From positions 1 through 22,522 of IMG/VR virus record IMGVR_UViG_3300031565_000408: a stretch of DNA of 22,522 nucleotides; one strand, given 5' to 3'. The notes beneath the pieces were generated by a model, which worked only from the letters and a program-made list of their open reading frames with translations, had not been told where the DNA came from and searched no databases. The translations under genes and the position numbers were made by a program. Each line of letters begins with the position of its first letter. Within the stretch, counting starts at the first letter, position 1. Positions 2,941 through 22,398 of the stretch are shown piece by piece. Source of the DNA: a virus.

Positions 2941-3486
2941 CTATCGCCTGCCCTTCACACTGTTGCGCCATACCTTGTCCAGGTCGGCGAGCCCCTTCTC
3001 CAGGGCGGGGGCCATAAACGGCCGGGCGGCGACGTCGACCTTCCGCAGCCGGGTCGGCAGGTCGGCGTTCCGCCGCCGGGAGCGGAGATCCGCCCGTCGC
3101 CATCGGCGCCACTTCCAGACCTCGCGGATGAAGATGTCGCCGCCGTGCTCGAGGACCTCCGGGGTCGTGCCGCTCACGGGCCGGCCATCGTTCCCGAAAA
3201 AAACCTGGTTCGTCTTGGCCGGGCCGATCACGACCGACTCGCGATCGGGCTCGTAGGCGAAGAACAGGAACCGCTTGAGCGTGCCTTCGTGACTACTGGG
3301 GGGCTTGCCGGGTTGATTGGACTTCTTGCGGCTGCGGATCGAGGACCTGGCGGCGGTGCGGACGAACGCGCCTTGGCGGGACAGGTTTGCACGCTTCGCC
3401 GCGTCCACGGCGGCTTTCACAAAATCGGTGTCGAAGAAGTTCATCTTCGACGGGCTGCCGACGAGTTTCATCTTGAAGGCGACCAT
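2941..3486 (-). CDS. HK97 gp10-like head-tail/tail completion protein
   Basis: The 181-aa product is very basic (RSSIRSRKKSN, WKWRRWRRADLRSRRR). It ends with ARPFMAPALEKGLADLDKVW, which resembles the C-terminal RPF-x-x-PAL signature of HK97 gp10-type tail completion proteins. The N-terminal helix (FVKAAVDAAKRANLSRQGAF) also fits that family, which sits at the head-tail interface. In classic siphophages this gene precedes the major tail gene; here it lies just upstream of the tape measure and downstream of the membrane-protein cluster. It starts 6 bp after the stop of the holin-like gene and abuts the tape-measure start. The assignment rests on remembered family features and is moderate; another basic tail protein is possible. 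Confidence 0.6.
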   Translation of the reverse strand: MVAFKMKLVGSPSKMNFFDTDFVKAAVDAAKRANLSRQGAFVRTAARSSIRSRKKSNQPGKPPSSHEGTLKRFLFFAYEPDRESVVIGPAKTNQVFFGNDGRPVSGTTPEVLEHGGDIFIREVWKWRRWRRADLRSRRRNADLPTRLRKVDVAARPFMAPALEKGLADLDKVWRNSVKGRR

Positions 3487-3492
3487 CGCGTC

Positions 3493-3798
3493 TCAGGCGT
3501 CCTCCGAGCTGCCGAGCAGCCGGGTGACGGCGCCGGTTGCGGCCTTGCCGCCGGCCGACCAGAGGCCGCTTGCGATCAGCCCGGCCTGGAGGCCGCCCCA
3601 GAGGATCTGGCCGACCACCTGGGGGGCGGCCGCGTCCGCCGGCGGCTGATAGATCGTCCAGGCGGCCGTCACGACCAGGCCCAGGCCGATGGCGACCCAC
3701 GGCAGCAGCCACGAGCGGGCCTCGGCCGCGAGGGCCGGGATCCGGCGGGCCTGCTGGACGAGCACCATCACGAGTGCGGCGATCAATGCGAGGTCCAT
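3493..3798 (-). CDS. Small three-helix membrane protein, holin-like
   Basis: The 101-aa product has three hydrophobic segments: residues about 3-15 (LALIAALVMVLVQ), 30-50 (centred on LPWVAIGLGLVVTAAW) and 61-80 (VVGQILWGGLQAGLIASGLW). Size and topology match class I holins, which make pores that release the endolysin, but no conserved holin motif is recognised. An AGGATAGG ribosome-binding site stands ahead of the ATG at 3798. It belongs to a run of membrane-associated genes (a lipoprotein gene and a one-helix protein gene lie upstream in the same operon) inside the tail module. No endolysin is visible in the window. An alternative is a membrane protein involved in DNA ejection. Confidence 0.55.
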   Translation of the reverse strand: MDLALIAALVMVLVQQARRIPALAAEARSWLLPWVAIGLGLVVTAAWTIYQPPADAAAPQVVGQILWGGLQAGLIASGLWSAGGKAATGAVTRLLGSSEDA

Positions 3799-3828: not shown

Positions 3829-4098
3829 CTAGAGCTCGATGCCGAACAGGCCGGCGGCCGCCCGGATGAGGGCGACGGCGCCGGTCGCCGTGGACAGCTC
3901 GCCTTCGGCGACGCCGAGGCTCGTGAGGGCCTGCTGGACTTCCGGCGACGGCCTGGCCGTCTGGAGGTCGGGCGTAACCGGGACGTCGGTGTCGAACGTC
4001 GGGCCGGCCTGCTGGACGCGCGAGATCTCGACGCTCAGCAGAGCGGCCTCGGAGAGGATCTCCCGAAGGCGGGCTTTCTTGATTTCAATTTCGGTCAT
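3829..4098 (-). CDS. Small conserved-looking protein of unknown function (89 aa)
   Basis: The frame is open far upstream, but the credible start is the ATG at 4098 because a strong GGAAGGA ribosome-binding site lies 8-10 bases ahead and the lipoprotein gene ends just before it at 4116. The product begins MTEIEIKKARLREILSEAAL, an amphipathic helix. It continues with a proline-containing linker and a C-terminal Ala/Leu helix ending in AAGLFGIEL. There is no signal peptide and no cysteine. It sits between the lipoprotein and the three-helix membrane protein, so it may work with them at the membrane. The function is unknown. Confidence 0.6.
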   Translation of the reverse strand: MTEIEIKKARLREILSEAALLSVEISRVQQAGPTFDTDVPVTPDLQTARPSPEVQQALTSLGVAEGELSTATGAVALIRAAAGLFGIEL

Positions 4099-4115
4099 TT
4101 CTGTGGTCCTTCCGG

Positions 4116-14859: not shown

Positions 14860-14921
14860 CGATATGTATAGCGCTGGGGCGGGAAAATTCGTCCACGAAG
14901 GGGGGTTGAGAAGCGAAGAGT

Positions 14922-14949
14922 TGTCCACGAATTACACGAATTACACGAA
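14922..14949 (+). repeat. Left arm of a perfect 28-bp inverted repeat
   Basis: The arm reads TGTCCACGAATTACACGAAT onward and contains a direct doubling of the unit attacacga. It is the exact reverse complement of 15181-15208. A partial third copy (GTCCACGAA) lies at 14891-14899. The composition is far more AT-rich than its surroundings. I recall similar 'ttcgtgtaattcgtgtaattcgtgg' sequences as dispersed intergenic repeats in bacteria of the PVC group; that is memory, not a search. Confidence 0.85.
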
Positions 14950-15180: not shown

Positions 15181-15208
15181 TTCGTGTAATTCGTGTAATT
15201 CGTGGACA
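15181..15208 (-). repeat. Right arm of the perfect 28-bp inverted repeat
   Basis: Bases 15181-15208 are the exact reverse complement of 14922-14949. The arms enclose 231 bp containing the two tiny ORFs and a stretch of short gat(t/c)aac repeats near 14955-14990. No target-site duplication is visible outside the arms. The structure could be a MITE-like insertion, a folded RNA element or a recombination site. Confidence 0.85.
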
Positions 15209-15220
15209 GATCTTCCGTCG

Positions 15221-15559
15221 TCAGCCCTCGGCGTCGGCCGCGTTTTGCTCGACCGTGGTGATCCTCCGGCCGCAGTTGCGGCATTCCCGCCGGCGGACCA
15301 GTTGCCCGGGGCGGGGCCGCACGTACAGCACCCAGAAATGCCGGCAGCCGCAGGTGCGGCAGACGAGGCCCTCGTCGGGCTCCGCCGGCGGCTCGAGCGG
15401 CGGCGGGATCCCGGCGTCGGCCAGGTCGGGCATCTGGTCGGCCAGGTCGCCGACCGGGATCGTCTCGCCTTCGTGGAGGTCGCCGTCGGCGGCGGCGAGG
15501 GGCCGGCGTTTGGGCCTGGTCGGCTTTCGGCGTTTTGCTCTTCGCGATTTTGATTTCAC
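15221..15559 (-). CDS. Zinc-ribbon protein coupled to the large terminase (112 aa)
   Basis: The C-terminal half carries a four-cysteine zinc ribbon: CRTCGC at about residues 67-72 and CRNCGR at about 93-98. These are separated by a beta hairpin (HFWVLYVRPRPGQLVRRR), similar to the zinc ribbon of NrdR-like and other nucleic-acid binding proteins. The N-terminus is strongly basic (MKSKSRRAKRRKPTRPKRRP), followed by an acidic linker, so DNA or RNA binding is likely. It starts with GTG 15559 overlapping the terminase stop (GTGA), with GAGG 8 bases ahead. The position between terminase and portal suggests a packaging accessory role, or regulation like phage zinc-finger proteins. The function is not established. 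Confidence 0.7.
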   Translation of the reverse strand: MKSKSRRAKRRKPTRPKRRPLAAADGDLHEGETIPVGDLADQMPDLADAGIPPPLEPPAEPDEGLVCRTCGCRHFWVLYVRPRPGQLVRRRECRNCGRRITTVEQNAADAEG

Positions 15560-18681: not shown

Positions 18682-18709
18682 TTGACGTCCTGGCGGGGCA
18701 TGGTATTAT
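18682..18709 (+). promoter_or_regulatory. Extended -10 sigma70-like promoter of the plus-strand operon
   Basis: TTGACG (18682-18687) and TATTAT (18704-18709) are separated by 16 bases. A TGG directly ahead of the -10 box supplies the extended -10 TGn element. The predicted start of transcription is near 18716, leaving a leader of about 60 nt to the first gene. It is the best promoter in the window and stands out against GC-rich surroundings. Confidence 0.75.
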
Positions 18710-18778: not shown

Positions 18779-19156
18779 ATGGTCGCGAAAGCGGATACGG
18801 TTTACGGTCGCTGGACGACGGTTCCGGTTGCTTGGTCGGGGCAGCGTCTTTACGACTGGGGCCGCGGCGGCCTCCGGTCGCAGGGGAATGTGCTGGTTCG
18901 GCCGGCTCGCGGCCGGGCCCGCAAAACCTTCCATTACCACCAGGGCACGGTCGAGCTGGTATCGATGGCCGTCGGCGGCGATCGTCGCCTGCTGTATCGG
19001 GTCAGGGCGTTGGCGCCGGGCGAGACGTGGCCGGTGTATGAGCGGTCGGGAAAATTCTGGTCGAGGCGGTACTACCTGGTGCCGCCGGCGGCGCTGGCGA
19101 CGGCGCGGGACGAGCTGGCGGGCGAGGCCGGCGAGCAGCTGGCGGCGGCGGGCTAG
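18779..19156 (+). CDS. Plus-strand operon gene 1, unknown (125 aa)
   Basis: The start at 18779 is chosen because GAGGAG lies 7 bases ahead; an in-frame ATG at 18725 has no ribosome-binding site and sits only about 9 bases from the predicted transcription start. The product begins MVAKADTVYGRWTTVPVAWS and has aromatic-rich strands (SGQRLYDWGRGGL, RKTFHYHQGTVELVSM, WSRRYYLVPPAALATARDEL) and an Ala-rich C-terminal helix. It is soluble, without a membrane segment. It is the promoter-proximal gene of a five-gene set separated by repeats. I do not recognise the family; an early phage host-takeover or anti-defence protein is only a guess from position. Confidence 0.7.
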   Translation: MVAKADTVYGRWTTVPVAWSGQRLYDWGRGGLRSQGNVLVRPARGRARKTFHYHQGTVELVSMAVGGDRRLLYRVRALAPGETWPVYERSGKFWSRRYYLVPPAALATARDELAGEAGEQLAAAG

Positions 19157-19220
19157 TCGGGCCCGCGCCCGGGCGCCCCGCGGGGCGGCCGGGCATGGGC
19201 CCGGCAATGGTGCCGGGGCC
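19157..19220 (+). repeat. Intergenic repeat copy A (diverged)
   Basis: This copy fills the gap between gene 1 and gene 2, directly after the stop codon. The last 30 bases (GCAATGGTGCCGGGGCCAAG and flanks) match copy B closely. The 5' part is also GC-palindromic (GCGCCCGGGCGCC) but of different sequence. It is followed by the ribosome-binding site of gene 2. Confidence 0.7.
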
Positions 19221-19237
19221 AAGGAAAGGGCAGAACG

Positions 19238-19537
19238 ATGACGAAGCAGAAGCGGCCGAAAACGTACGAGGCGAAGGTGAACGGGCGATCGGTGCAGGTG
19301 ACGGTGCCGCCGCGGGAGGCGGTAGCGTACAGCGGCGACCTCACGGAGGTTCTGCGGGACGTCATCCGGGACAACCTCAGCCCGCATGCCGTGGCGGCGG
19401 TGGTCTCCTGCCTGCGGATCAACCGGACCAACAACCCGCAGGTCGATGGGCAGGTCCACTGGTTCGCCGAAGAACTGGTGAAGATGCTCGGCGGGCCGGA
19501 GGAGCAGGTGCGGCTCGGTGAGGAGCTGGGGCTGTAG
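19238..19537 (+). CDS. Plus-strand operon gene 2, unknown (99 aa)
   Basis: The product starts MTKQKRPKTYEAKVNGRSVQ, forms a short beta hairpin (VQVTVPPREAVAYSG) and then a helical domain (DLTEVLRDVIRDNLSPHAVA, AVVSCLRINRTNNPQVDGQV, HWFAEELVKMLGG). It has a GGAAAGG-type ribosome-binding site and lies between repeat copies A and B. The helical part, with its VSCLRINR..NPQVD.QV.WF pattern, looks conserved and I believe I have seen similar hypothetical proteins in planctomycete-type genomes, without a known function. No catalytic motif is visible. Confidence 0.7.
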   Translation: MTKQKRPKTYEAKVNGRSVQVTVPPREAVAYSGDLTEVLRDVIRDNLSPHAVAAVVSCLRINRTNNPQVDGQVHWFAEELVKMLGGPEEQVRLGEELGL

Positions 19538-19543
19538 CGCGGC

Positions 19544-19618
19544 CGTGCGGGCCGGGCCCGCACGCGGGCGTCGCTGTCGGCGGCCTCCGCGTCCGGGCCT
19601 GGCGATGGTGCCGGGGCC
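19544..19618 (+). repeat. Intergenic repeat copy B
   Basis: This 75-bp element starts 7 bases after the stop of gene 2. It folds into a 5' hairpin (CGTGCGGG-CCGG-CCCGCACG) and a 3' hairpin (GGCCTGGC-GATGGT-GCCGGGGCC region), joined by GCGTCG/CGGCGGCCTCCGCGTC. It differs from copy C at only a few positions. The ribosome-binding site of gene 3 follows about 10 bases later. Confidence 0.85.
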
Positions 19619-19637
19619 AAGGCGAAAGGACAAGGCC

Positions 19638-19895
19638 ATGAAAATCACGCAGATCATTGTCGAGGGCGCTCGCGGCTGGGCGACGATTCTCCGCAGCGGT
19701 TTGGACGTCATGGTGAACTGGGAGGTTTCGACCGGGTCGCCGCGTCAGGGCTCTTGGGTGATCTCTCCGGGCGACTGGCGCGGGCAGGGCGGCTGGGCCT
19801 GGGCGGCGCGGCTGCACCGGCAGCTCGAGGGTTCCGACGGATGCGCGGGCGACGTCGCCCCGTATCGGTTGGCGCTCGAGCACTTCTTTGGGTGA
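19638..19895 (+). CDS. Plus-strand operon gene 3, unknown (85 aa)
   Basis: The ATG at 19638 follows AAAGGACAAGGCC. The frame is open upstream through repeat B, but the ribosome-binding site and the end of the repeat favour this start. The product begins MKITQIIVEGARGWATILRS, continues DVMVNWEVSTGSPRQGSWVI and SPGDWRGQGGWAWAARLHRQ, and ends LALEHFFG. It is a small, tryptophan-rich soluble protein, probably a compact alpha/beta fold. No family is recognised. Its flanking by two nearly identical repeats (B and C) makes it one of the cassette-like units. Confidence 0.65.
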   Translation: MKITQIIVEGARGWATILRSGLDVMVNWEVSTGSPRQGSWVISPGDWRGQGGWAWAARLHRQLEGSDGCAGDVAPYRLALEHFFG

Positions 19896-19899
19896 TGCT

Positions 19900-19973
19900 C
19901 GTGCGGGCCAGGCCCGCACGCGGGCGTCGCCGGCGGCGGCCTCCGCGTCCGGGCCTGGCGATGGTGCCGGGCC
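19900..19973 (+). repeat. Intergenic repeat copy C
   Basis: This copy starts 5 bases after the stop of gene 3. It has the same double-hairpin layout as copy B, with a G-to-A change in the first loop (GGGCCAGGCCC) that keeps the stem intact. The central CGGCGGCGGCCTCCGCGTCC is the same as in copy D. Confidence 0.85.
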
Positions 19974-19994
19974 GGTAGCTTGAAGGAGATTGGC

Positions 19995-20198
19995 ATGGTT
20001 TCTGTTGTGATCGAGACGGGTGTCGCTCGGGACGGCGTCGGGGCCTTTGCCCAGGTCCTCGCGCAGGGCGCGGGCGGCGGGCTCCACTGCACGGCAGATT
20101 GCGGCAGCTCGCGGGCCGCGATCTTGCGGGCCCGCCAGTGGGCGAAGCGTGCCGGCCACGTGGTCGGGTACGTCAACGGCCGGCGGGTGCCGACCTAG
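19995..20198 (+). CDS. Plus-strand operon gene 4, unknown (67 aa)
   Basis: The start at 19995 is set by a GAAGGAG ribosome-binding site 5 bases ahead, so the TTG/GTG openings further upstream are ignored. The product begins MVSVVIETGVARDGVGAFAQ, contains LHCTADCGSSRAAILRARQW and ends AGHVVGYVNGRRVPT. Two cysteines five residues apart (HCTADC) might be structural, but no full zinc site is present. It is a small basic protein without a membrane segment, flanked by repeats C and D. No family is recognised. Confidence 0.6.
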   Translation: MVSVVIETGVARDGVGAFAQVLAQGAGGGLHCTADCGSSRAAILRARQWAKRAGHVVGYVNGRRVPT

Positions 20199-20204
20199 TC
20201 GCGT

Positions 20205-20277
20205 CGTGCGGGCCGGGCCCGCACGTGGGCGTCGCCGGCGGCGGCCTCCGCGTCCGGGCCTGGCGGGTTGCCGGGCC
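20205..20277 (+). repeat. Intergenic repeat copy D
   Basis: This copy starts 7 bases after the stop of gene 4. It is nearly identical to copy C, except that GCGGGCG becomes GTGGGCG and the loop GATGGT of the second hairpin becomes GGGTT. The stems are conserved while the loops vary, which argues for a folded RNA or DNA element. Confidence 0.85.
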
Positions 20278-20302: not shown

Positions 20303-21034
20303 ATGAAGAAGCAGGACGTAGTTGTGGGCGAGCTGTATCGGATCTCGTATCGCGGCAAGACCACGGTTGCGCGGGTCACCGGCGAGCGGGATGGGAAGCC
20401 GGGCTGGGACGGGCTGGACATCGCCACCAGGCGGCCGGTGATCGTCGCCGCGGCCTCGAGGGTGCAGTGCCGCTGCGATCGGAACGGGAAGGCCCTCGAG
20501 CCGGCCGCCAAGCCGGCCGCGGCGGCGAACCGGGAGAACGCCCGTCTGGCCGCGGAGCGGCGGAAGTCGACCGACCGCATGACGGCCAGCGAGCGGGCGA
20601 TGTCGGCCGCGGCGCCGGCCGTGGTCGCGGAGCTGGCGAAGAAGGCCAGGGCGAAGCCGGGCGTGGCCGCAACGGTCGCGGCGGTCGAGAAGGGGGACTT
20701 GACCAAGGGCGTGACGGTGCCGACGGCGAGGCGCAAGCGGCCGACCCCGCGGGCGACGCCGAAGGTCAAGGCCAAGGGCAAGGGCCGCAGCGGCCTCGAC
20801 GCGGCGGTCGCGGTCCTGGCGAAGGCGGATGGGCCGCTGGGGGCGCAGGCCATCGTCGATCTGGCGCTCAAGCGGGAGCTCTGGTCGACGAAGGGCAAGA
20901 CGCCGGCGGCGACGATCTACGCGGCCATGATCCGCGAGATCGCCAGCAAGGGCTCCGCTTGCCGGTTCCGCAAGACCGGGCCGAACGCGTTTGATCTGAC
21001 CGACATCGGGAGGGCGATTGCGCCGCCCCGGTAG
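20303..21034 (+). CDS. HARE-HTH (winged-helix) DNA-binding protein (243 aa)
   Basis: The C-terminal part from about residue 168 (GLDAAVAVLAKADGPLGAQA, IVDLALKRELWSTKGKTPAA, TIYAAMIREIASKG, FRKTGPNAFDLTDIG) matches the HARE-HTH domain, a winged helix thought to link DNA binding to chromatin, restriction or modification functions. Residues 1-60 form a separate beta domain (VVVGELYRISYRGKTTVARV). The middle is an Ala/Lys/Arg-rich disordered linker with AT-hook-like basic runs (KAKGKGRS, RRKRPTPR). ATG 20303 follows GGGAAAGGATC. As last gene of the plus-strand operon it may regulate the operon or read DNA modification; that role is inference. Confidence 0.8.
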   Translation: MKKQDVVVGELYRISYRGKTTVARVTGERDGKPGWDGLDIATRRPVIVAAASRVQCRCDRNGKALEPAAKPAAAANRENARLAAERRKSTDRMTASERAMSAAAPAVVAELAKKARAKPGVAATVAAVEKGDLTKGVTVPTARRKRPTPRATPKVKAKGKGRSGLDAAVAVLAKADGPLGAQAIVDLALKRELWSTKGKTPAATIYAAMIREIASKGSACRFRKTGPNAFDLTDIGRAIAPPR

Positions 21035-21059: not shown

Positions 21060-21353
21060 TCACTTCGCCCTGGACGAGGCCCCGACCCGATCGGCCGGGG
21101 CCTTTCCTTTGCGCGGGCGGATGGAAAAGGGCACGTTCGCCGCGGCGAAGGCGGCGACCATGGCGCCCTGGGCGTCGGCGATCTTCTCCTGGGCTCGCCG
21201 GGCGAAGGTGCGGGCGGCGGCCAGGTCCTGGCGGATGGTGCGGATGGTGGTGCGCTTGGCGGCGTCGGCGACGGCCAGCTCGAGGCCGATCAGGCAGCCG
21301 CGGGCGATGCGGAGCTTGGAGAGGGCCCGGTTGGCTGGGCTCGTCTTGCTCAT
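21060..21353 (-). CDS. Small helical basic protein, unknown (97 aa)
   Basis: The product begins MSKTSPANRALSKLRIARGC and is mostly helical (LIGLELAVADAAKRTTIRTI, ARRAQEKIADAQGAMVAAFA), ending in a basic tail RPRKGKAPADRVGASSRAK. No membrane segment or metal site is seen. The ATG at 21353 overlaps the TGA of an upstream Arg/Pro-rich frame (ATGA) and has GGAG immediately ahead, which is too close for normal initiation, so translation by coupling is likely. It converges on the HARE-HTH gene. The function is unknown. Confidence 0.65.
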   Translation of the reverse strand: MSKTSPANRALSKLRIARGCLIGLELAVADAAKRTTIRTIRQDLAAARTFARRAQEKIADAQGAMVAAFAAANVPFSIRPRKGKAPADRVGASSRAK

Positions 21354-21676
21354 CTCCGGGCACGCCCTCCAGGCGGGGGTCCTGGGGTGGCCCGGGCGGG
21401 CGATCGGCGGCGGGGCGGGACTTGGCGGCGGCCGGCTGGGGCTTTGCTCACACGGGGCAACCTGGGGGGGGCTGGCGTGCCGGCCGGCCGGGGCGTCCGA
21501 AACCGTGGCCTGGGGGTCCCTGTTTGGCGGGCGACCTGGCGGCGTCGGGCCCCGGGGCCGCGACGCGGGGTCCCTGTGTCGCACGGGCGGGCGATCGGCC
21601 GCGGGGCGGGCCTCCGGGCGGCCCGGGGGGTTCGAGCTGACACGGGGCGACCTGGGGGTTTCGGCCTGGTGGTCAT
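21350..21676 (-). CDS. Arg/Pro-rich ORF linked by ATGA overlaps on both sides (108 aa)
   Basis: This frame starts with ATG 21676, overlapping the stop of the ParB-like gene (ATGA), and stops at 21350 overlapping the ATG of the 97-aa gene (ATGA). Two such junctions at both ends of one open frame are unlikely by chance and point to a translated, coupled gene. The product (starting MTTRPKPPGRPVSARTPRAA) is about half arginine and proline, disordered and strongly basic, and is encoded by DNA with a 190-bp-spaced direct repeat. It may be a degenerating or fast-changing nucleic-acid binding tail. The alternative is repetitive non-coding DNA that happens to be open in GC-rich sequence. Confidence 0.4.
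   Translation of the reverse strand: MTTRPKPPGRPVSARTPRAARRPAPRPIARPCDTGTPRRGPGARRRQVARQTGTPRPRFRTPRPAGTPAPPRLPRVSKAPAGRRQVPPRRRSPARATPGPPPGGRARR
21393..21468 (+). repeat. Direct repeat, unit 1
   Basis: CGGGCGGGCGATCGGC (from 21393) and, 53 bases on, GCTCACACGGGGCAACCTGG (from 21446) recur in the same order and near-same spacing about 190 bp further right. The sequence between the matching blocks is diverged. The two units together fill the stretch between the ParB-like and the 97-aa gene. Confidence 0.65.
21584..21658 (+). repeat. Direct repeat, unit 2
   Basis: This is the second unit: CGGGCGGGCGATCGGC (from 21584) followed by GCTGACACGGGGCGACCTGG (from 21636), matching unit 1 at 21 of 23 positions in the second block (compared over 23 bases). 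Such a spaced duplication may have arisen by tandem duplication of about 190 bp. It could serve as binding sites for a ParB-like protein encoded next to it, which is speculation. Confidence 0.65.
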
Positions 21677-22398
21677 CGGTGTGGTTTCTTGCTGGGGGCC
21701 TTGCGGGCGGTCCCGGGGGCCCGGCGGGGGCGGCGGCCCGGGGCGGCCGGTTTCGGGGTGGTCCTCTCGGCCTGGCGGCCGGTGAAGGCCTGCCATCGCT
21801 GCACGATGACGTCGCAATAGGGCGGGTCGGTGTTGACCAGGTGGATCTTCGCCCCGTCGAGGAGGCGGTCGACGTCGGCGGCCTTGCCGGCGTCGCCGCA
21901 CAGGAGGCGGTGGTCGCCGAGGACGTAGAGATCTCCGGGCTGGGTCGTGGCCTTGTCGGGCGGCTCGGGGACGGCGTCGGGGTCGGTGAGGCCCTCGGCC
22001 AGGCCGGGCTCCAGCAGGCTGCCGAGCTGGTCGGCGGGAAATCCCAGGGCCTCGAGGTCAAAGTCGACGTCATTCAGCTCGCCCAGCTCGGCCAGGAGCA
22101 GCTCGTAATTCCAATCGGACAGGTCGGAGGTCTGATTGTCGGCGAGGCGGTACGCGCGCACCTGGTCGGGCTTGAGGTCGGTCGCGACGTGGACGGGGAC
22201 GCGTTTGAGCCCGAGCTGCTGGGCGGCCTTCCAGCGGGTGTGGCCGACGATGATGACGTCGGCGGCGTCGACGACGATCGGCTGGCGGAATCCGAACTCG
22301 CGGATCGACCGGGCGACGGCGGCGACGGCCGGATCGTTGACGCGGGGGTTGCCCGGGTACGGGCGGATCGACTCAATCGGTCGCAGGACCACCTTCAT
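21673..22398 (-). CDS. ParB-like nuclease-domain protein fused to a collapsed DNA methyltransferase (241 aa)
   Basis: Residues 1-95 are a ParB/sulfiredoxin-like domain: RPIESIRPYPGNPRVNDPAV, REFGFRQPIVVD, VIIVGHTRWKAAQQLGL, then YRLADNQTSD. Residues 153-194 match the opening of a beta-class adenine/cytosine-N4 methyltransferase (PGDLYVLGDHRLLCGDA, then NTDPPY at 189-194, the catalytic motif IV). The next residues CDVIVQRWQAFTG are what normally closes such enzymes (after ELDPxY). The roughly 200 residues between, including the SAM-binding FxGxG motif, are missing in frame, so it cannot be an active methyltransferase. The tail is basic (RRPRRAPGTARKAPSKKPHR). ATG 22398 has GGAGG ahead; the longer frame to 22506 lacks a good start signal. 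Confidence 0.8.
   Translation of the reverse strand: MKVVLRPIESIRPYPGNPRVNDPAVAAVARSIREFGFRQPIVVDAADVIIVGHTRWKAAQQLGLKRVPVHVATDLKPDQVRAYRLADNQTSDLSDWNYELLLAELGELNDVDFDLEALGFPADQLGSLLEPGLAEGLTDPDAVPEPPDKATTQPGDLYVLGDHRLLCGDAGKAADVDRLLDGAKIHLVNTDPPYCDVIVQRWQAFTGRQAERTTPKPAAPGRRPRRAPGTARKAPSKKPHR

Follow-up and report, generated by a model that had tools for sequence, protein, structure and literature searches.

Repeated intergenic elements in front of small phage genes have been described in several systems. SAS and ESAS are known from mycobacteriophages of cluster K and from Microbacterium phages of cluster EF (PMC3203893, PMC7302621). There they sit in intergenic gaps longer than 50 bp, ahead of the start codons of many small non-structural genes that belong to different families; most copies point in the direction of the gene, and the host has none. 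The SAS itself is a box of 13 bp located at the ribosome-binding site, and the ESAS, an imperfect inverted repeat, lies directly upstream; gene exchange at SAS was not what those reports were about. The promoter-terminator stem-loops (PeSLs) of T4-type phages (Arbiol 2010 and Comeau 2014, as cited in PMC4503421 and PMC3950731) are presented in the citing papers as intergenic stem-loops that are repeated among small genes and tied to modular shuffling of those genes. Haloarchaeal virus HGTV-1 carries a TATA-like plus inverted-repeat motif that is conserved before most genes of one genome half, and regulation and shuffling have been proposed for it (PMC3950731). Integron attC sites, in turn, are imperfect palindromes that lie between small genes in one orientation.

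We analyzed an operon with an element of this general kind in a 22,522-base IMG/VR record (hereafter the window, meaning the whole stretch of DNA analyzed), a phage contig that is possibly a fragment. An earlier note, made from the letters of this DNA, had stated that no phage element of this form was described; this was too strong, since SAS/ESAS, PeSLs, and the HGTV-1 motif are of the same general kind. The minus strand of the window carries genes for a lambda-type portal, a gpA-type terminase large subunit (TerL), a capsid, and a cement protein. Relatives of TerL were found in at least 80 listed viral contigs and at 74 loci of bacterial genomes, nearly all from Planctomycetota, and the closest among the matches listed were approximately 60% identical. 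The window phage is a virus of Planctomycetota bacteria, and its relatives sit in planctomycete genomes. Among GenBank phages, the operon had no DNA match, o5 had no homologue, and TerL was matched at only approximately 26%. The small-gene operon lies on the plus strand between the ParB/methyltransferase gene and the terminase genes, with the following features.

18682..18709, plus strand: putative sigma70-like promoter TTGACG-16-TATTAT (TG-extended); 1 found against 0.2 expected
18779..19156, plus strand: o1, 125 aa, function not assigned; homologue in phage L187, 58% amino acid identity
19157-~19222, plus strand: repeat copy A, leader of o2; diverged, with a strong long hairpin (z -3.5)
19238..19537, plus strand: o2, 99 aa; family in 28 loci, immediately 5' of o5 in nearly all
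19544-19615, plus strand: repeat copy B, leader of o3; near-identical to C and D
19638..19895, plus strand: o3, 85 aa; family in 48 loci, upstream of o2 in relatives
19900-19971, plus strand: repeat copy C, leader of o4; core of 54 bp shared with copy 2 of L187 at 96% identity
19995..20198, plus strand: o4, 67 aa, orphan; AAGGAG Shine-Dalgarno
20205-20276, plus strand: repeat copy D, leader of o5; near-identical to B and C
20303..21034, plus strand: o5, 243 aa, HARE-HTH domain protein (PF05066, E 1.4e-9)

The five genes look real, judging from their sequences: o2, o3, and o5 because their families occur in many relatives, o1 because of its homologue in L187, and o4, although an orphan, because of its good Shine-Dalgarno and coding-like GC by codon position. 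The HARE-HTH gene o5 was found in approximately 60 related operons at the same place and in the same orientation, usually as the last gene or nearly so. The structure model of o3 predicted a fold of four strands plus helices; no solved relatives were found for the models of o2 and o3, and single-protein scans with o2, o3, and o4 gave no close relatives.

As the earlier note had claimed, one repeat family fills all four spacers of this operon. All copies are in gene orientation and start at or just after a stop codon, the gap being 0 nt for A, 4 nt for C, and 6 nt for both B and D. Identity among B, C, and D was 91–96%, whereas copy A was 62–64% identical to them overall, in agreement with its description as diverged. 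The score of the A-B alignment (80 columns) was reached by 0 of 300 dinucleotide shuffles, and the 3' half of A contained 41 nt with an 80% match to B. The four spacers measured 81, 100, 99, and 104 bp; over 270 spacers of this operon from relatives, with these four counted in, the median was 30 bp. No further convincing copy was detected in the rest of the window, and exact 21-mers of the repeat had no match among viral contigs. The arrangement resembles that of ESAS in that inverted repeats precede the starts of non-structural genes of different families (o2, o3, o4, and o5). Unlike the SAS box, the repeat ends 18–26 nt before the ATG in copies A–D; the ribosome-binding site lies outside it, and the ribosome-binding regions differ between the copies.

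Other repeats were also observed in the window. A second direct repeat, unrelated to A–D, occupies 21376-21468 and 21567-21658 (80% identical over 95 bp), between a small ORF at 21063-21353 and the methyltransferase gene. An inverted repeat with TTCGTGTAATTCGTG units lies between the portal and terminase genes, at 14903-14949 and 15181-15227 (85% complementary, 47 nt). The ParB/methyltransferase protein (21673-22398, minus strand) has 241 aa, compared with 440–545 aa in relatives. Its DPPY motif runs straight into the C-terminal CDVIVQRW stretch, and approximately 200 or more residues, the FGGSGST motif among them, are missing in frame. This short form is either an internal deletion or an assembly collapse.

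The folding of the element was then considered. It can be drawn as hairpin 1 (CGTGCGGGC/GCCCGCACG) followed by hairpin 2 (GGCCYGGC/GCCRGGCC), or as one long bulged hairpin (GCCRGGCCCG...CGGGCCTGGC) that competes with them. In copies B, C, and D, the two arrangements differed by 0.5–2.4 kcal/mol, and these near-equal energies suggest that the element may be bistable. The "double hairpin" of the earlier note is thus one possible fold, in competition with the single long one, and the variable loop it reported (GGGCCG/AGGCCC) is a loop in hairpin 1 but is paired in the long hairpin, where G.U changes to A-U. Across seven copies of the element, 91.7% of cells of the long hairpin were paired, a value that 0 of 500 shuffles reached, and its covariation score was matched by 3 of 500; the aligned copies are few, and their relatedness inflates the pairing test. 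The four copies alone gave weaker support for pairing (24/500). In hairpin 2, 92.9% of cells were paired, with U.G, U-A, and C-G at one position, and the shuffle control was not significant. Folding z-scores against dinucleotide shuffles were weak for B (-0.75) and D (-1.26), owing to the high GC content of the DNA.

Palindromes that recur at set positions ahead of start codons might also be operators or stoperator-like sites bound as DNA by a phage regulator, and the authors of the ESAS report favoured DNA-binding sites for that element (PMC3203893). Changes among ESAS copies, however, do not support RNA pairing (PMC3203893), whereas substitutions in the window element keep it, including G.U pairs, which break DNA symmetry. 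In the seven-copy listing, the coding strand had 17 G.U cells against 3 A.C cells, counted over related copies that are not independent, and this excess favours a coding-strand RNA over a DNA palindrome. The coding strand also folded better than its complement in the two copies that were folded on both strands, and no copies lay at promoters elsewhere in the window. We regard DNA-binding sites as very unlikely.

The hairpins are very stable and stand right after stop codons, as would be expected of termination or attenuation elements that create an expression gradient along the operon, possibly by sensing ribosomes through competing folds. The two folds, nearly equal in energy, have arms in common; the 5' arm starts 4–6 nt past the stop codon and would be covered by a ribosome terminating there. 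Against this, no stem followed by a T-run was found between 18000 and 21400, and the element matched no Rfam family. The ordinary intrinsic terminator, one of the roles considered in the earlier note, found no support here, and termination or attenuation in general appears unlikely. It is conceivable, though doubtful, that the leaders are ribosome-sensing bistable RNA switches, portable per gene, which would make up a recombinase-free cassette format of planctomycete phages. A ribosome terminating on the upstream gene would then mask the 5' arm, with the long hairpin replacing hairpins 1 and 2, and translation of the preceding gene would set the expression of the next. Each small gene would carry its own portable switch, and genes would be pluggable in any order.

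Several features separate the element from the described systems. Unlike PeSLs as characterized in the papers that cite them, the window repeats carry no sigma70-like promoter, the only type covered by the search; between 18000 and 21400 no second one was found besides that at 18682..18709, which precedes o1. They also have no T-run of the terminator type, again in contrast to PeSLs as those papers portray them. The HGTV-1 motif includes an archaeal promoter (PMC3950731), and none was seen in the window element. The element is closest to SAS/ESAS and PeSLs in its placement and its link with shuffling, and is a member of neither because it lacks the ribosome-binding-site box, the promoter, and the terminator that define them.

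Neither blastn with the repeat nor a covariance model built from A–D only revealed a significant copy in the relatives selected by TerL. A profile scan with the o2 family detected phage L187, in which the order is o1-rep1-o2-gX-rep2-o5, gX being an orphan gene. Copy rep1 (3409-3495) precedes o2 and rep2 (4040-4106) precedes o5, and these are the only two copies on its 43-kb contig. The rep2 copy was 96% identical to window copy C over 54 bp, compared with 61–64% DNA identity for o1, o2, and o5, and 59% protein identity for TerL. Two prophages of one genome also carry the element, with the order o3-leader-o2-o5 in L154 and o3-leader followed by an unrelated 59-aa gene in L208. Between them, o3 was 80.5% and the leader 86.9% identical (84 bp, equal length), and the similarity broke off at the start codon of the gene after the leader. 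The L208 copy was the eighth to be detected, by a covariance model built on the seven others (genome G046, which also holds L154; E 4.7e-7). Conservation of the element thus extends to two phage lineages besides that of the window. Strictly homologous copies were present more than once only in the window and L187, so multiplication of the exact element within a phage rests on these two phages. When 72 spacers from relatives were ranked by similarity to A–D, o2 leaders (L013, L025, and L154) took three of the first four places, and the element most likely began as a leader of o2.

Near-identical palindromic copies, with a core more conserved between phages than the genes, could also point to selfish REP- or MITE-like palindromes inserted into intergenic gaps. 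The earlier note had named a host-wide REP-like distribution as evidence against its own idea, and this distribution was looked for. A class-wide model search gave any match at E 0.01 in only 3 of 150 genomes, with the best two matches both in prophages of one genome, and a repeat search in four genomes returned low-complexity matches only. The many copies across a host chromosome that mark REP/BIME elements were not seen in the class genomes searched. Moreover, there were no copies elsewhere in the window or in the 43 kb of L187, and the element always lay exactly between a stop codon and a ribosome-binding site, always in gene orientation. Selfish palindromes are a highly improbable explanation.

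The earlier note had read the locus as a gene-cassette system or a modular accumulation of accessory genes. Units of gene plus repeat in the same orientation, with imperfect palindromes of 70–75 bp, a length similar to that of attC sites, do recall integron cassettes, in which a site-specific recombinase would act on the repeat. The GTTRRRY core or its inverse occurred in no copy, as the note itself had remarked; no recombinase adjoins the repeats in the window; and the element is also found where no cassette array exists, as one copy each in L154 and L208. The placement and the exchange pattern differ from those of attC sites as well, and no association with an integrase was seen. Among the window proteins scanned there was no integrase match, and an integrase-like ORF lies near the L208 operon; recombination genes of the window phage were not seen because the window is a 22.5-kb fragment. 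The integron-like reading found no support, and a recombinase acting on the repeat is extremely improbable, whereas modular accumulation at the repeat was supported by the gene orders of relatives.

Gene order was compared with iterated HMMs for o2, o3, and o5, which replaced a Louvain label (F2) that merged several unrelated families. Genes in relatives were called with a simple codon-usage caller, with profile matches as backing, and where the same contig appeared twice among the loci (e.g., L171 and L028) only distinct ones were counted. In all 16 relatives having both genes, o3 lay upstream of o2; as L022, L023, L024, and L044 are near-duplicates, these represent at most 13 (approximately 13) distinct phages. 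The window alone showed the reversed order, o1-A-o2-B-o3-C-o4-D-o5, which indicates that o3 changed place and that the orphan o4 was added. Copies B, C, and D, which are near-identical, enclose exactly these two genes. A fixed gene order, which the earlier note had proposed as a refuting outcome, was not what the relatives showed. L187, with the same repeat, has another gene between o2 and o5, and the two prophages of one genome have the same leader before different genes. Genes have been gained, replaced, and relocated at these leaders. In one further relative (L012, 12683-14554), the o3 and o5 homologues were observed downstream of terL and on its strand, whereas their usual place is upstream of terL and on the other strand; it looks as though the whole operon moved as one block.

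Elements without a demonstrated relation to that of the window mark the same kind of gene gain and movement. Element R is a 66–70-bp spacer common to L009, L019, and L090. The order is F13-R-F14-R-F31 in L009 and F13-R-F31 in L019, and the one R in L019 can be aligned with each of the two in L009; the extra gene is accompanied by an extra R. L090 and L092 are 88% identical over 1.9 kb, yet have different spacers and different genes after F13. Element M, with the core GCATGGCTCATGTGTG, is present in 4–6 copies in each of three Pirellula-type prophages (L138, L121, and L125), where it precedes small genes upstream of terL, and it also occurs in L190–L194. In L138, genes G97 and G85 stand upstream of o5; in L121 and L125, both are found on its downstream side. 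Each of the two has its own M copy in L138 and L121. The modular shuffling that the citing papers attribute to PeSLs was seen for the window element and also for R and M. Some copies of M include, on their upstream side, a stem with T after it, which resembles a terminator joined to a leader and places M closer to PeSLs as those papers outline them.

A start-associated repeat of another type was observed in L028 (2713-2777 and 2981-3041) and L043 (6445-6506 and 6713-6770). It is 85% identical between neighbouring genes and covers the ribosome-binding site, the start codon, and the first codons (MSTKNA). Self-repeats in L048, L042, L072, and L038 were rejected as counterparts, as they lay in coding sequence, did not fall in the spacers between genes, or were unrelated.

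Ordinary phage mosaicism, that is, illegitimate recombination plus selection for intact genes, would likewise place exchanges at gene boundaries, with the leader kept for expression and not driving exchange. The retention of the leader in L154 and L208 could reflect selection only; their identity stops at the start codon and not inside the leader, and most related operons shuffle genes with short, unique spacers. Mosaicism alone, however, leaves unexplained both the three near-identical copies in one operon and the extra gene with an extra element copy in L009 compared with L019. We consider it possible but rather unlikely as the full account.

We find it probable that the element is a leader/spacer hairpin acting in cis in the mRNA, that it moves together with small genes, and that phages recombine at it as at a homology seam. 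From the comparisons above, we infer that the element acts as RNA, that it affects expression, and that leader homology drives exchange. The repeat would be a start-associated leader/spacer of a polycistronic phage operon, reaching from the stop codon to the ribosome-binding site. In the mRNA, the leader would form one highly stable hairpin, or else two hairpin arrangements that compete, and its most likely role would be to separate and protect the cistrons and to keep each start site independent. Leaders would be inherited or copied along with their genes. Since the copies are alike between and within phages, a leader would offer 50–80 bp of homology at gene boundaries, and recombination there, most likely of the phage annealing type or the host RecA type, would add, remove, and move leader-plus-gene units. 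Lambda Red recombines diverged sequences well, at 22% divergence (PMC2327257). The ancestral arrangement was probably o1-leader-o2-leader-o5, as in L187, and the units B-o3 and C-o4 would have been added between o2 and o5 in the lineage of the window.

It is an open question how phages can take up and swap small accessory genes and still keep their operons intact. To our knowledge, clear molecular seams for gene exchange have been found in few phage groups. Here, one operon at a fixed place between methyltransferase and terminase genes can be traced across dozens of planctomycete phages, and at least three intergenic elements (that of the window, R, and M), with no demonstrated mutual relation, stand where genes of this operon were gained, replaced, or moved, a pattern that suggests a convergent use of hairpin or leader elements as seams. 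Because genes come, go, and change places at the leaders in related viruses, the leaders are likely seams at which these phages rebuild their gene sets, and named sites are now at hand for testing whether leader homology drives the exchange.
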